Origin: Treponema sp.
GTDB taxonomy: Bacteria > Spirochaetota > Spirochaetia > Treponematales > Treponemataceae
Assembly: GCF_024696245.1 (NCBI RefSeq)
Contig: NZ_JAILGZ010000107.1
Location: 1-46,115, forward strand
Direction: 5' to 3'
DNA: 46,115 nt
Part shown: positions 4,638-36,310 of the stretch, piece by piece
Numbering within the stretch: the first letter of the stretch is position 1
Layout: each line of letters starts with the position of its first letter
Translations under genes and position numbers: made by a program
Notes under the pieces: model-generated
What the model was told of the DNA's origin: nothing
The model's database searches: none
Seen by the model: the letters and a program-made list of their open reading frames with translations, nothing else

Positions 4638-5024
4638 ATGAAAAAGTTGTTTTGCAAAAGTATTATTATAGGATTGTTTTTATCACTTTTAGTTATACCT
4701 TTATTTGCAAAAGAGAAGCTGGACTGGTACATAATGGATAATGCAATTACCGTTACAAGCAGGGGTGAAGTTCACGAAAAGTATTATATACAGCTTGCAA
4801 TTGGATATAACATAAGCGAAAAAAAAGCTCAGGCAGAACTTAAATCCCGTAAAATTGAATTGATAGATTTTTTAAGAAGATTTTTTTCTAATTGCAGTGC
4901 AGAAGATTTAAAGCCAGAAAATGATGCAGTACTTAGAGCTAAGCTTAAGGATGAAATAAACCAGAACCTGCTGACAAAACCTTTTGTTGAGGATGTGAAA
5001 TTTATTCAGAAAAGAAAATTATAA
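4638..5024 (+). CDS. Secreted FliL-like protein
   Basis: A 128-residue protein with a signal peptide or N-terminal membrane anchor (residues 5-23, ending LFAKEK) and a soluble domain outside the membrane. The C-terminal half resembles FliL, the flagellar basal-body protein that supports stator function: RKIELIDFLRRFF, then LRAKLKDEINQNL and VEDVKFIQ near the end, in the order seen in FliL proteins (helix, Leu-rich strand, V-DV-F). It lies alone, not in a flagellar operon, so it is a divergent FliL-domain paralogue at best. AAGGAGG lies 6 nt upstream of the ATG, and a terminator follows directly. The family call is from pattern only. Confidence 0.55.
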   Translation: MKKLFCKSIIIGLFLSLLVIPLFAKEKLDWYIMDNAITVTSRGEVHEKYYIQLAIGYNISEKKAQAELKSRKIELIDFLRRFFSNCSAEDLKPENDAVLRAKLKDEINQNLLTKPFVEDVKFIQKRKL

Positions 5025-5061
5025 ATTAAAAAGATATTTGCAGTTTGTAAGGTAAAGAAGG

Positions 5062-5090
5062 CGTAAGATAATAAATCTTACGTCTTTTTT
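5062..5090 (+). terminator. Rho-independent terminator
   Basis: CGTAAGAT (5062-5069) pairs with ATCTTACG (5075-5082), followed by CTTTTTT. It ends the FliL-like gene and abuts the first copy of the 77-bp repeat. Confidence 0.8.
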
Positions 5091-5167
5091 ATTGAGGGTT
5101 TATTACAAAACCCTCAAAACGGCGAAGTCAAGGCTTTAAGCGTGAGCGTGCCTTGACTCGACGTATT
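5091..5167 (+). repeat. 77-bp two-hairpin dispersed repeat, copy 1
   Basis: Identical over 77 bp to 23647-23723. It contains two hairpins: TGAGGGTTT/AAACCCTCA with a 6-nt loop, and AGTCAAGGC/GCCTTGACT with a 15-nt loop. It begins immediately after a terminator T-run. On the minus strand it encodes the last codons and stop of the cysteine-cluster gene (YVESRHAHA). Read on that strand, the second palindrome is preceded by GTCG, similar to the tetranucleotide that marks REP elements; that comparison is inference. Confidence 0.85.
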
Positions 5168-5639
5168 TGCCTTTTTCCTCCTCCATAAGCTGCAGGACTT
5201 CTTCCCGGGTGATGGGGGTGTTGTTCTGGTAGGCTGTGGAGTCGGCCAGGATTTTTTCTTTGGGCCAGAGTTTGCCTGAGTTCATTCCGGGGCAGTCTTT
5301 AGCACATTCGTTCCAGGTGTCCTGGTCTTCTATCATCCAGGTCCAGAAGGGGTAGGTGGAGCACTGGACTGGTCTTGCAGGGTAAGCGGTACAGCCATTG
5401 TTCCAGAGGATGCAGTCGTAGTTCTTTTTTTCAAATAGGGCCAGTACTGTTTTGCCTTCGTAGTAGCCTGCCCAGCGGCAGTATTTTTTTACAAAGTCTT
5501 CTATATTACAGTCAAAATATTTGCAGAGGGTAAGCAGGTCTCTTTTGGAGAGGTAGACGTAACCAGGTGAGTGTCCGCAGCAGAAGGAGCATCTTTTGCA
5601 TTCAAAGTGCAGGCCTTCCTGATAAAAAGGTTTTTCCAT
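5136..5639 (-). CDS. YkgJ-family cysteine-cluster protein
   Basis: A 167-residue cytoplasmic protein of the zinc- or iron-chelating cysteine-cluster family (YkgJ, formerly UPF0153). The metal-binding pattern is complete: CKRCSFCCG at 14-22, then CRW, YDCILWNNGCTAYPARPVQCSTYPFW, where RPxxCxxYPF is the family hallmark. The role is unknown; a bound iron-sulphur or zinc centre is expected. The C-terminus is unusual: the last nine residues and the stop codon come from the 77-bp repeat, so the original C-terminal end has probably been replaced. It is divergent from purL, and no clear Shine-Dalgarno precedes its ATG. Confidence 0.85.
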   Translation of the reverse strand: MEKPFYQEGLHFECKRCSFCCGHSPGYVYLSKRDLLTLCKYFDCNIEDFVKKYCRWAGYYEGKTVLALFEKKNYDCILWNNGCTAYPARPVQCSTYPFWTWMIEDQDTWNECAKDCPGMNSGKLWPKEKILADSTAYQNNTPITREEVLQLMEEEKGKYVESRHAHA

Positions 5640-21943: not shown

Positions 21944-22438
21944 ATGAACGAATCAGAAGAAATCTTGAATTTGCTGCGTGATAATGGACGTATTTCGGTT
22001 GAAGATATTTCAGCCATGACAAAAAGATCCGTTGAAGAAGTTAATGCTATTATTCAGAAGTTAGAAAACGACGGCGTTATCATGAAGTACGCGGCGATTA
22101 TTAACCCGGAAAAAGATTTAAGTGCAAAAGAAAAGGTTCGTGCAGAAATAGAGATTCAGGTAACACCTGAGCGTGAACACGGTTTTGACGGAATTGCAGA
22201 CCGTATTTACAGATTCCCTCAGGTTAAGTCTTTATATCTTATGAGTGGCGGTTATGATTTTAAGGTAATCATAGAAGGAGACACTCTTCAGGAAGTGGCG
22301 GATTTTGTCGCCCGTAAGCTTTCTACACTTCAGGGTGTAAGGGCAACAAAAACATGTTTTATTTTAAAGACTTACAAAGAAAACGACATCGTATATGTAG
22401 AAACAGACTGCGACCGTCGTGAAGGAGCTATGGCATGA
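21944..22438 (+). CDS. Lrp/AsnC-family transcriptional regulator
   Basis: A 164-residue regulator with an N-terminal winged HTH (about 1-50, RISVEDISAMTKRSVEEVNAII) and a C-terminal RAM effector domain (about 65-150, VKSLYLMSGGYDFKVIIEG), the order seen in Lrp and AsnC proteins, which sense amino acids. TTGGAG precedes the ATG, and a good -10 (TATAAT, 21917-21922) lies farther upstream. Its last codons overlap the aminotransferase start (ATGA), so the two are translated together. It probably senses an amino or keto acid related to the partner enzyme and controls this operon; the ligand is unknown. Confidence 0.87.
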   Translation: MNESEEILNLLRDNGRISVEDISAMTKRSVEEVNAIIQKLENDGVIMKYAAIINPEKDLSAKEKVRAEIEIQVTPEREHGFDGIADRIYRFPQVKSLYLMSGGYDFKVIIEGDTLQEVADFVARKLSTLQGVRATKTCFILKTYKENDIVYVETDCDRREGAMA

Positions 22439-23604
22439 ATACTCGCGAAGACAGGTTAAGCAAAACAATACAGAACATTCCCCCAAGTGGAATCCGTAAA
22501 TTTTTTGAGATGCTCATCGGACATGATGATGTAATTTCCCTTTCTGTAGGTGAACCGGATTTTCCTACACCATGGTGTATGAGGGAAGAAGCTTTTTATC
22601 ATCTTGAAAAGGGTCACACCAGCTATACAAGTAACTGGGGTCTTCTTGAACTCAGGGAAGAAATTGCTAAATACATGAGCAGATATGGTATGGATTATAA
22701 CCCTGTTAATGAAATTCTCATTACAGTTGGTGCCAGTGAAGGTGTTGATGCAGCTCTCCGTGCAATCCTTAATGAAGGAGACGAGATTCTTGTAAGCCAG
22801 CCTTGCTATGTAAACTATACTCCTCTTGCTGAATTGTGCCACGCAAAGGTTGTGCCTGTTGATTCAAGTAAAAACAATTTTTACCCGACAGCAGCACAGA
22901 TAGAAGAGCTTATTACACCAAAAACAAAGGCTCTTATGATTTGTAGTCCAAACAATCCTACAGGAACAATGATTCCTAAAGAAGAACTGGCTAAAATTGC
23001 AGAAGTTTGTAAAAAGCATCAGATCTGGGTTATCAGTGACGAGATTTACTGTGAACTTGCCTATGAAGATGCAGAACATGTAAGTATCGGTTCCTTTGAC
23101 GGCATGAAGGATTACACAATCGTACTTAACGGATTTTCTAAATCCTTTGCCATGACAGGATGGCGTATTGGTTATATTGCAGCTCCTGCAGAAATCCTTG
23201 CCCAGATAGTTAAGCTTCATGGTTACAATACAATCTGTGCTCCAATTTTCAGTCAGTATGCAGCTCTTGAAGGCTTAAGGCATGGCTGGAAAGATGTAGA
23301 AAAAATGCGCATCAGTTACCAGCAGAGAAGAAACCTTATGGTTAAAGCCTTTAATGATATGGGACTTCCTGTTCCGGAACCAAAGGGTGCCTTTTATATG
23401 TTCCCGGATATTTCTTCTACAGGAATGACAAGTGAAGAGTTTGCTACAAAACTTTTTCAGCAGCATAATGTAGCAGTTGTTCCAGGCAGCGTCTTTGGTC
23501 TTGGTGGTGAGGGGCATATCCGTGTCTGTTACGCTACCAGCATAGAAAAAATCAAGGTGGCTCTGGACAGAATCAAGCAGTTTGTAGAAGAAAACAGAAA
23601 GTAA
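22435..23604 (+). CDS. PLP-dependent aminotransferase, class I/II
   Basis: A 389-residue fold-type I aminotransferase. Cofactor residues are visible: the Asn-Pro motif in SPNNPTGT, the Asp/Tyr pair in VISDEIYCELAY, the Schiff-base lysine in NGFSKSFAMTGWRIGY, and the C-terminal substrate-binding Arg in GHIRVCYA. The pattern fits the aspartate/PatA-like subgroup that handles Asp, aromatic or N-acetyl-diaminopimelate-type substrates; the exact substrate cannot be assigned. It overlaps the Lrp-type regulator by 4 nt, the usual arrangement for a locally regulated amino-acid enzyme. A terminator follows within 10 nt. Confidence 0.88.
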   Translation: MNTREDRLSKTIQNIPPSGIRKFFEMLIGHDDVISLSVGEPDFPTPWCMREEAFYHLEKGHTSYTSNWGLLELREEIAKYMSRYGMDYNPVNEILITVGASEGVDAALRAILNEGDEILVSQPCYVNYTPLAELCHAKVVPVDSSKNNFYPTAAQIEELITPKTKALMICSPNNPTGTMIPKEELAKIAEVCKKHQIWVISDEIYCELAYEDAEHVSIGSFDGMKDYTIVLNGFSKSFAMTGWRIGYIAAPAEILAQIVKLHGYNTICAPIFSQYAALEGLRHGWKDVEKMRISYQQRRNLMVKAFNDMGLPVPEPKGAFYMFPDISSTGMTSEEFATKLFQQHNVAVVPGSVFGLGGEGHIRVCYATSIEKIKVALDRIKQFVEENRK

Positions 23605-23612
23605 TATTATAT

Positions 23613-23646
23613 GGGCTGTTCCTTTTATACGGGCAGCCCTTTTTTG
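23613..23646 (+). terminator. Rho-independent terminator
   Basis: GGGCTG (23613-23618) pairs with CAGCCC (23634-23639), followed by TTTTTT. The second 77-bp repeat starts directly afterwards. Confidence 0.75.
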
Positions 23647-23723
23647 ATTGAGGGTTTATTACAAAACCCTCAAAACGGCGAAGTCAAGGCTTTAAGCGTG
23701 AGCGTGCCTTGACTCGACGTATT
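23647..23723 (+). repeat. 77-bp two-hairpin dispersed repeat, copy 2
   Basis: Identical to 5091-5167, in the same orientation, and again placed directly after the T-run of a terminator. Here it is intergenic and touches no reading frame. The same two hairpins are present. Confidence 0.85.
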
Positions 23724-34930: not shown

Positions 34931-36310
34931 ATGAAAAAGTTGGTACTTACTGTAATTGCAGCTCTTAGTACAGCAGCTGTTTTTGCCAGTGGCGTAGAAA
35001 ACAAGACAAACATGAGCACTGGTTACCTTCGTAATCCAAGCCGTAACACAGAAGCAAAACGTCCAGAAGCTTCTTATTACAATGTTGCCGGAACAGTATT
35101 TATGGAAGACGGTCTTTATTTAGAAGCAGGAAACCAGTTTGTATTTAAGGAATATGGTAACGAACTGCAGACAGGTAATGCTTATGCTTCTTATGGTATA
35201 AACGATTACTATTCAAATGACGAAACAACTGTATGGGTATACCCTGATGCTGATTTTGTTTACAAGCGCGGTAAGTTTGCAGTATTTGGAAACTTTGGTG
35301 TTTATGCTGGCGGTGGTTCCCTTTCTTATAGTGAAGGTACTTCTGCTACAACCCTTCTTTTTGCTTCTGCAGCTTTAGATTATCAGACTCAGGCAACACA
35401 GGCTTATACAGCAGCAGCAGCTTATACAGCAGCAGGTGATTCTACTACAGCAGCAGCTTATACAGCAGCAGGTGATCAGGCATCAGGAGCAGCAACAGCT
35501 CTTGTTGGAGCAGCTACAAATCATTCCCTGGATGTAACTTCAATTACTTACGGTGGACAGCTGGGCGTTGCTTACATGTTCCTTGATAACCTTTCTTTTG
35601 CAGCAGGTCTCCGCTATGTACACGGAACCCAGAGCATGGAAATTCAGTCTGCATATTTTACTTCTTTAGGAAATGGAAGCGATTCAATTTCTTATGAAGC
35701 AAACGGCTATACAGTAAGTGGTGTATTTGGCATTCACTACCGCCCTATTGAAGAAGTAGACCTGGCAGTTCAGTTCCAGTCAAAGTCTTCTGTTAAATAT
35801 GAAGTTACAGAAGTAAAGGGTGCACTTGCTTCCAGCTTTGGTATTTATGACGGAAAAACTTTCCATACAGATCTTCCAGCTGCCCTTAACCTTGGTGCAG
35901 GATGGCAGGTAATTGAACCTGTTTACGTAAGTGCAAGCTTTAACTATTACTTTAACAAGTTTGCTAATCAGGATTCAATTCTTGGAGAAACAGACTATGA
36001 TGATTCATGGGAAGTTGCTCTTGGTGCTGACTGGGATATCTGCAAATGGGTTTCTTACAGCCTTGGTATTCAGTACGGAAAGCAGGGAACTAAGGATGAT
36101 TCAAACTCTACATTCAACCCTGTTCTTGACAGCTTCTGTGTAGGAACTGGTTTTGAAGTTTACCCTGTAGAAAACCTTACAGTTACAGCTTCATGTCTTT
36201 GGGCAAAATACTTTGACACTGATTATTATATTGAAGGAAACAAGACAGAACTTAGTAAGTCAGTTACTAACCTTTCACTTGGTGTAACTTACGTGTTCCC
36301 TAACTTATAA
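34931..36310 (+). CDS. FadL-like outer-membrane beta-barrel protein
   Basis: A 459-residue outer-membrane protein. The ATG at 34931 is chosen for the GGAG 6 nt upstream and the signal peptide it gives (LVLTVIAALSTAAVFA). The mature start GVENKTNMSTGYLRNPSRN resembles the FadL N-terminal hatch region, and the rest is alternating beta strands ending in TYVFPNL with an aromatic near the C-terminus. FadL-family proteins admit hydrophobic molecules such as long-chain fatty acids; treponemes carry several. An Ala/Thr/Tyr-rich repeat (12-residue period, 35402-35476) interrupts the barrel, likely in an exposed loop. It overlaps the convergent phosphatase gene by 11 nt. Confidence 0.75.
   Translation: MKKLVLTVIAALSTAAVFASGVENKTNMSTGYLRNPSRNTEAKRPEASYYNVAGTVFMEDGLYLEAGNQFVFKEYGNELQTGNAYASYGINDYYSNDETTVWVYPDADFVYKRGKFAVFGNFGVYAGGGSLSYSEGTSATTLLFASAALDYQTQATQAYTAAAAYTAAGDSTTAAAYTAAGDQASGAATALVGAATNHSLDVTSITYGGQLGVAYMFLDNLSFAAGLRYVHGTQSMEIQSAYFTSLGNGSDSISYEANGYTVSGVFGIHYRPIEEVDLAVQFQSKSSVKYEVTEVKGALASSFGIYDGKTFHTDLPAALNLGAGWQVIEPVYVSASFNYYFNKFANQDSILGETDYDDSWEVALGADWDICKWVSYSLGIQYGKQGTKDDSNSTFNPVLDSFCVGTGFEVYPVENLTVTASCLWAKYFDTDYYIEGNKTELSKSVTNLSLGVTYVFPNL
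35402..35476 (+). repeat. 36-bp tandem repeat inside the FadL-like gene
   Basis: A 27-bp core (35414-35440) recurs exactly at 35450-35476, a period of 36 bp, with a partial copy at 35402-35417. It encodes AAAYTAAGD units and keeps frame, so copy number can change without breaking the gene. Confidence 0.8.

Follow-up and report, generated by a model that had tools for sequence, protein, structure and literature searches.

The window analysed here, a contig of 46,115 nucleotides from Treponema sp. (NZ_JAILGZ010000107.1), holds a 77-bp sequence at 5091-5167 that recurs exactly at 23647-23723 on the same strand. What kind of element is this repeat, and how did it come to lie twice at the end of a terminator T-run? 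The initial annotation had described it as two palindromes, either recently copied or under strong constraint, and had likened it to REP/MITE elements moved by a transposase acting in trans. The features that bear on the question are as follows.

4638-5024: fliL-like ORF upstream of copy 1 (Pfam match FliL)
5058-5090, + strand: terminator hairpin and T-run after the fliL-like gene, 12-bp stem plus T6, DNA fold z -6.3; insertion target of copy 1
5091-5167, + strand: first copy (copy 1) of the two-hairpin element, including the ATT at either end; 85.7 bits with model R1
5092-5117, + strand: hairpin P1 of copy 1, TTGAGGGTTT..AAACCCTCAA, from the fold and from P1 covariation in 57 diverse copies
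5116-5118, + strand: putative guide bases N'AA between P1 and P2 of copy 1, from N'-N complementarity
5119-5164, + strand: hairpin P2 of copy 1, with the conserved head GTCAAGGC..GCCTTGAC, from the fold and pair counts
5136-5639, - strand: convergent CxxCxxCC-domain ORF (ORF list, Pfam)
22435-23604: aminotransferase ORF upstream of copy 2
about 23614-23647, + strand: weak terminator behind the aminotransferase gene (hairpin with a 6-bp stem, then T6; z -1.2), the target site of copy 2
23647-23723, + strand: copy 2 of the element, from sequence identity and the model match

Both copies start at the end of a terminator T-run, as noticed at first, and the two palindromes were confirmed by folding. 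The 77-bp repeat forms two hairpins far better than shuffles do, with a z of -5.9 as RNA (0 of 200 shuffles as stable) and of -7.95 as DNA. The convergent CxxCxxCC gene runs into copy 1, which at 5136-5163 supplies its stop codon and final nine codons and so gives the protein the C-terminal tail YVESRHAHA; the alignment with the orthologous protein of G001, another genome of the genus, extends only up to residue 156 of 167. The G001 spacer orthologous to the site of copy 2 contains neither the element nor the terminator, and therefore provides no clean empty site. Elsewhere in the window, tandem 18-bp short coding repeats (family D1) were observed at 35393-35482.

The genome-wide count revealed 14 copies in this genome (G000, a draft of 2.66 Mb in 163 contigs). 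Nine of them, namely copy 1, copy 2 and seven more, are identical over 77 bp, one is identical over 76 bp, one matches at 99% and one at 94%, and the two others are partial, with 97% and 93% over 60 bases. With 14 copies in the genome, 11 of which directly follow a hairpin and T-run, chance is ruled out, and the suggestion of recent copying is borne out. Among the relatives searched, matches were found in 18 of 39 genomes, all of the same genus, and every genome has its own version. Scanning GTDB genomes for the pattern of the P2 head yielded at least 117 stretches. Among the matches listed, the titles were Treponema, Spirochaetaceae, Spirochaetales or Spirochaetia, except for one contig of a 'Bacillales' MAG (L163), whose left flank is nearly the same as that of the T. 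porcinum locus L129.

A covariance model (R1) was built from an alignment (A1) of 57 diverse copies, 10 of the 67 representatives being omitted as P2-only, near-duplicate, degenerate or phage copies. When the genus was searched with R1, 42 of its 59 genomes proved to contain the element; G001 has 47 copies and G040 has 52, the maximum for one genome. In all, 14 of the 59 genomes are copy-rich, having at least 10 copies. Across the order, R1 detected the element in 18 of 116 genomes, of which 14 belong to the genus (G000 among them) and four to sister genera in the same family, and it was found in no other family of the order among the 116. By these relatives, the window itself would be placed in Treponema. 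The element carries no gene and is spread among gut treponemes. The data show that the copies were amplified separately in each species. The element is mostly intergenic, as 17 of 167 copies fall in any predicted ORF and many of those ORFs are doubtful. Phage and plasmid collections gave no match to the element. In IMG/VR, a viral contig of 161 kb (L204) carries the exact P2 head at 1002-1031 on the minus strand, with a longer stem, before an ORF of 328 aa.

In G000, 11 of the 14 copies start exactly at the end of a hairpin and T-run, and P1 faces the terminator in all of these. Two of the cases are weaker, L002 having a longest T-run of 3 in the last 10 bases and L008 a stem score of 6; L012, L013 and L014 are not behind terminators. 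A terminator-like left flank was found in 30 of 50 copies of the GCGAA/TCGACG subfamily, which is the commonest one and that of the window, compared with 10 of 85 copies of other subfamilies and 56 of 3,000 random ATT sites. Of 20 additional copies, two from other species of the genus and 18 from sister genera, 10 have such a flank as well. The repeat is more than a pair of identical copies, and its relation to terminators extends beyond this strain. The fixed register at the T-run end suggests target recognition, beyond selection for harmless sites.

The unit of about 74-79 bp consists of AT(N), P1, the linker N'AA, P2 and the end CGTAT(N). P1 has a stem of 9-10 bp or more with a variable loop. 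P2 has 15-16 bp with an internal loop, its outer stem being followed by the head GTCAAGGC-YTTNA-GC..GC-GT-GCCTTGAC. In P1 and the outer P2 stem, the sequence is free to vary while pairing is kept: 15 of 26 pairs of A1 have changed on both sides, among them every one of the 10 in P1 and five of the 14 in the P2 stem. The covariation score of A1 is 0.436, compared with 0.112 for shuffles and at most 0.067 for slid controls, and 95.3% of the cells pair, compared with at most 49% when the partners are slid. The foot arms of P2 differ among subfamilies (TCGACG, CGTTCC, CATTCG, CAGACG and others), with a compensating 5' arm. The GTCG that had been noted beside a palindrome turned out to be this paired foot in the commonest subfamily only, the TCGACG arm occurring in 65 of 167 copies. 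Because the GTDB scan used the exact head pattern, conservation of the head is built into the copies from that scan. Among 60 copies detected with the model, only L278, L265 and L289 deviate from the exact head stem, and in sister genera GGG/CCC replaces GGC/GCC in the head, a compensatory change. This conservation points to a protein that may read the head by sequence and the remainder by shape. At the gathering score, no Rfam match was found in the window and no family reaches the cut-off; the weak Rfam matches on six loci were discarded, none being relevant.

The mode of insertion is revealed at L132, where one palindromic host repeat occurs twice, once with the element (150 bp) and once without it (71 bp). 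The extra length is exactly 79 bp and is bordered by ATTG on each side (CATAG-ATTG / ..CGT / ATTG-CCACG), showing that the element inserts precisely. This sole direct empty site has the target ATT(G). The host, CATTGCGAG..CTCGCAATGA, is a separate abundant palindromic repeat of 64-71 bp, which hosts one subfamily (L132, L039, L117 and L164). In addition, tandem units with one common ATT were found in G001, G014, G156, G150 and L126/L192. Beyond ATN, a clear target duplication was not seen.

For the linker and its flanks, 161 copies were reduced to 136 with a clear P1 by dropping those with N or short flanks, with a P1 score below 6.5 or without A at the right end, and then to 92 by collapsing like P1. 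The two bases before P1 are AT in 130 of the 136 copies. N' is the complement of the target base N in 133 of the 136 copies and in 89 of the 92, and the N-N' classes T-A, A-T, G-C and C-G are all present, with targets ATT, ATA, ATG and ATC. The same relation to N' holds for the right-end base in 74 of the 92 copies, against a mean of 51 and a maximum of 64 in 10,000 shuffles, which ignore relatedness. The linker is therefore able to pair with the ATN at either border. However, in the GGAACGA/CGTTCC subfamily the bases behind the right-border CCTA vary, with a constant ATT on the left, so that right-end pairing is not general. Alternatively, N-N' could simply close P1 and be passed on as part of the element, without any reading of the target.

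A distinct group of copies lies at start codons. Eight of 153 copies are reversed and directly precede the ATG of an ORF of at least 150 aa (L118, L128, L146, L156, L166, L176, L182 and L190). An SD-like motif is found in P1 of seven of these eight, against 0 of 96 other distinct P1. The genes behind them are unrelated (leucyl-tRNA synthetase, Hsp70, GH94, class II aldolase, AAA, exonuclease and flagellar rod), and leuS carries a start-codon copy in two genomes.

The mobilising enzyme was searched for in four families. The TnpA-REP (Y1) transposase proposed in the initial annotation was not found in the 163 contigs of G000, either by PF01797 or by a RAYT protein query; RVT_1 (reverse transcriptase) and Y2 likewise gave none in G000, which has one IS110-type gene. 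A Y1 gene of RAYT size (~250 aa) is present in seven of the 59 genus genomes, four of the 14 copy-rich ones (G006, G010, G014 and G040) and three of the 45 others (Fisher p 0.048, uncorrected). Ten of the 14 copy-rich genomes thus lack Y1, so the current abundance of the element does not require it. The RAYT-like proteins of the four copy-rich genomes match NF047646 at 52-62 bits, under the 80-bit cut-off. An element copy lies in the fetched stretch at one of 13 RAYT-size Y1 loci, about 320 bp away in G010; roughly 0.13 such neighbours are estimated by chance, and several loci stop at contig ends. IS110 genes occur in 19 of 59 genomes (six of the 14 copy-rich), Y2 genes in two (none copy-rich) and RVT_1 genes in 17 (two of the 14 copy-rich). 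Thus the copy numbers are left unexplained by the four families tested, and the search for an autonomous relative or a Y1 TnpA source with shared ends found none. Two further candidates were rejected. In G001, the RAYT query matched weakly, but in antisense within an ORF that by eye resembles metH, and this match was dismissed. The P2-only copies L111, L121 and L175, considered as ends of an autonomous element, have by eye upstream ORFs without a transposase.

We propose, with the chances about evenly balanced on the sequence data, that the repeat is a non-autonomous miniature element of Treponemataceae that moves as a single strand in an IS200/IS605-like manner, using a shared guide. The element would move as folded single-stranded DNA, and a trans-acting enzyme, not necessarily Y1, would bind the P2 head. 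Pairing of the guide N'AA with the target ATN would lengthen P1, and its pairing with the ATN at the right end of the element would lengthen P2; one guide base would set the target. The logic would be that of IS200/IS605 Y1 transposition, but with one shared guide, and we infer the Y1-like mechanism from the anatomy. A tenable though less than even alternative is that the repeat is moved by another enzyme or by one lost recently, such as one carried by a phage or plasmid, and that the guide pairing is the closing pair of the hairpin. This would agree with the missing Y1 gene in most copy-rich genomes, including G001 (six contigs, 97% complete, 47 copies), and with IS110, Y2 and RVT_1 genes that do not track copy number. 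However, the fixed register at hairpin and T-run, the lack of a clear target duplication beyond ATN and the covarying folds are predictions of single-strand transposition.

Readings without such movement, or with a known mobiliser, fared worse. The strongly conserved structure, the SD-like motif of the start-codon copies and the recurrence of leuS would fit a functional RNA, that is, a non-mobile regulatory part of a 3' or 5' untranslated region. This is very improbable, since the genes behind the start-codon copies are unrelated, no Rfam family was found at the gathering score, the copy sets are species-specific, and most copies of the window subfamily lie beyond the terminator and hence outside the upstream transcript. 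Membership in a RAYT/REP system whose RAYT is missing from the draft appears likewise very improbable: the RAYT-like proteins in four copy-rich genomes and their weak association (p 0.048) speak for it, whereas the gene is absent in the other 10, one of 13 RAYT loci has a copy nearby and the GTAG/GTCG tag is not conserved. The single-strand, shared-guide reading may be carried further, in a speculative and rather doubtful form, to a new kind of element. A trinucleotide guide between the hairpins would pair with the target and then with the element's own end, and natural single-base changes in it would have shifted some subfamilies away from ATT (terminator T-runs) and towards ATG, ATC and ATA. 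The start-codon subfamily would then be a mobile 5' leader whose first hairpin brings along a ribosome-binding site, and the mobiliser might be non-Y1.

Comparison with known systems places the element near several of them. The likeness to REP/MITE elements holds as an analogy, in that the repeat works like them, but not for the Y1 transposase in trans or the GTCG tag. Similar to REP/REPIN sequences with RAYT, the element is short, extragenic and palindromic, has many near-identical copies, lies preferentially 3' of genes and would be mobilised in trans. Unlike REP, it has no conserved unpaired GTAG/GGAG/GTCG tag, its foot being paired and covarying; it has two dissimilar hairpins with a fixed 1-nt spacer and the putative guide between them; a RAYT gene was not found in G000, and of the 13 RAYT loci elsewhere one has an element copy nearby. 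With IS200/IS605 miniature elements it shares hairpins at both ends (here P1 and P2), insertion 3' of a short target and a putative guide just 5' of the hairpin foot that would pair with the target; pairing of guide and cleavage site in IS608 is described in PMC6006769. It differs from these in that one guide would serve both ends and in the target ATN, and no autonomous IS or Y1 was found. Group IIC introns insert just behind terminator hairpins and T-runs, and the element likewise inserts behind a hairpin and T-run, but it is 77 bp long, lacks intron domains, and G000 has no reverse transcriptase.

Small palindromic mobile repeats are a known kind, and searches of open-licence papers gave no report of such repeats in Treponema. 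The start-codon subclass with its SD-like motif appears to be new, and so would be the proposed guide shared by both ends and its retargeting in nature. If the guide reading is true, the element would represent a compact case of insertion naturally reprogrammed by base pairing, with four guide/target classes in nature, and a repeat family without an obvious transposase could be tested in cultured Treponema bryantii and T. porcinum. CGTC-REPs and Rickettsia elements are likewise without an obvious transposase. The start-codon subclass would show a repeat slipping a structured leader with a ribosome-binding site into essential genes.

PMC3733652 reports that Rickettsia palindromic elements and CGTC-REPs can lie in frame in proteins and that no dedicated transposase was found, and describes CGTC-REPs with 8-9 bp stems, 4-5 nt loops and a CCA tail. 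Unlike the CGTC-REPs of that paper, the present element has no CGTC tag, 8-9 bp stem or CCA tail, and has two hairpins with a P2 of 15-16 bp. Similar to the Rickettsia elements, it lies in frame inside proteins: four copies (L030, L127, L130 and L134) are inside long ORFs in one common frame, VKALSEACLD, with L127 and L130 coming from one MAG. The remaining copies called CDS are at ORF ends or in short doubtful ORFs. In L024 (1400-1640) and L037 (1400-1610), what appears by eye to be a sugar-kinase gene has the element at its 3' end, and behind the element lies a second, diverged copy of the last codons of this gene.
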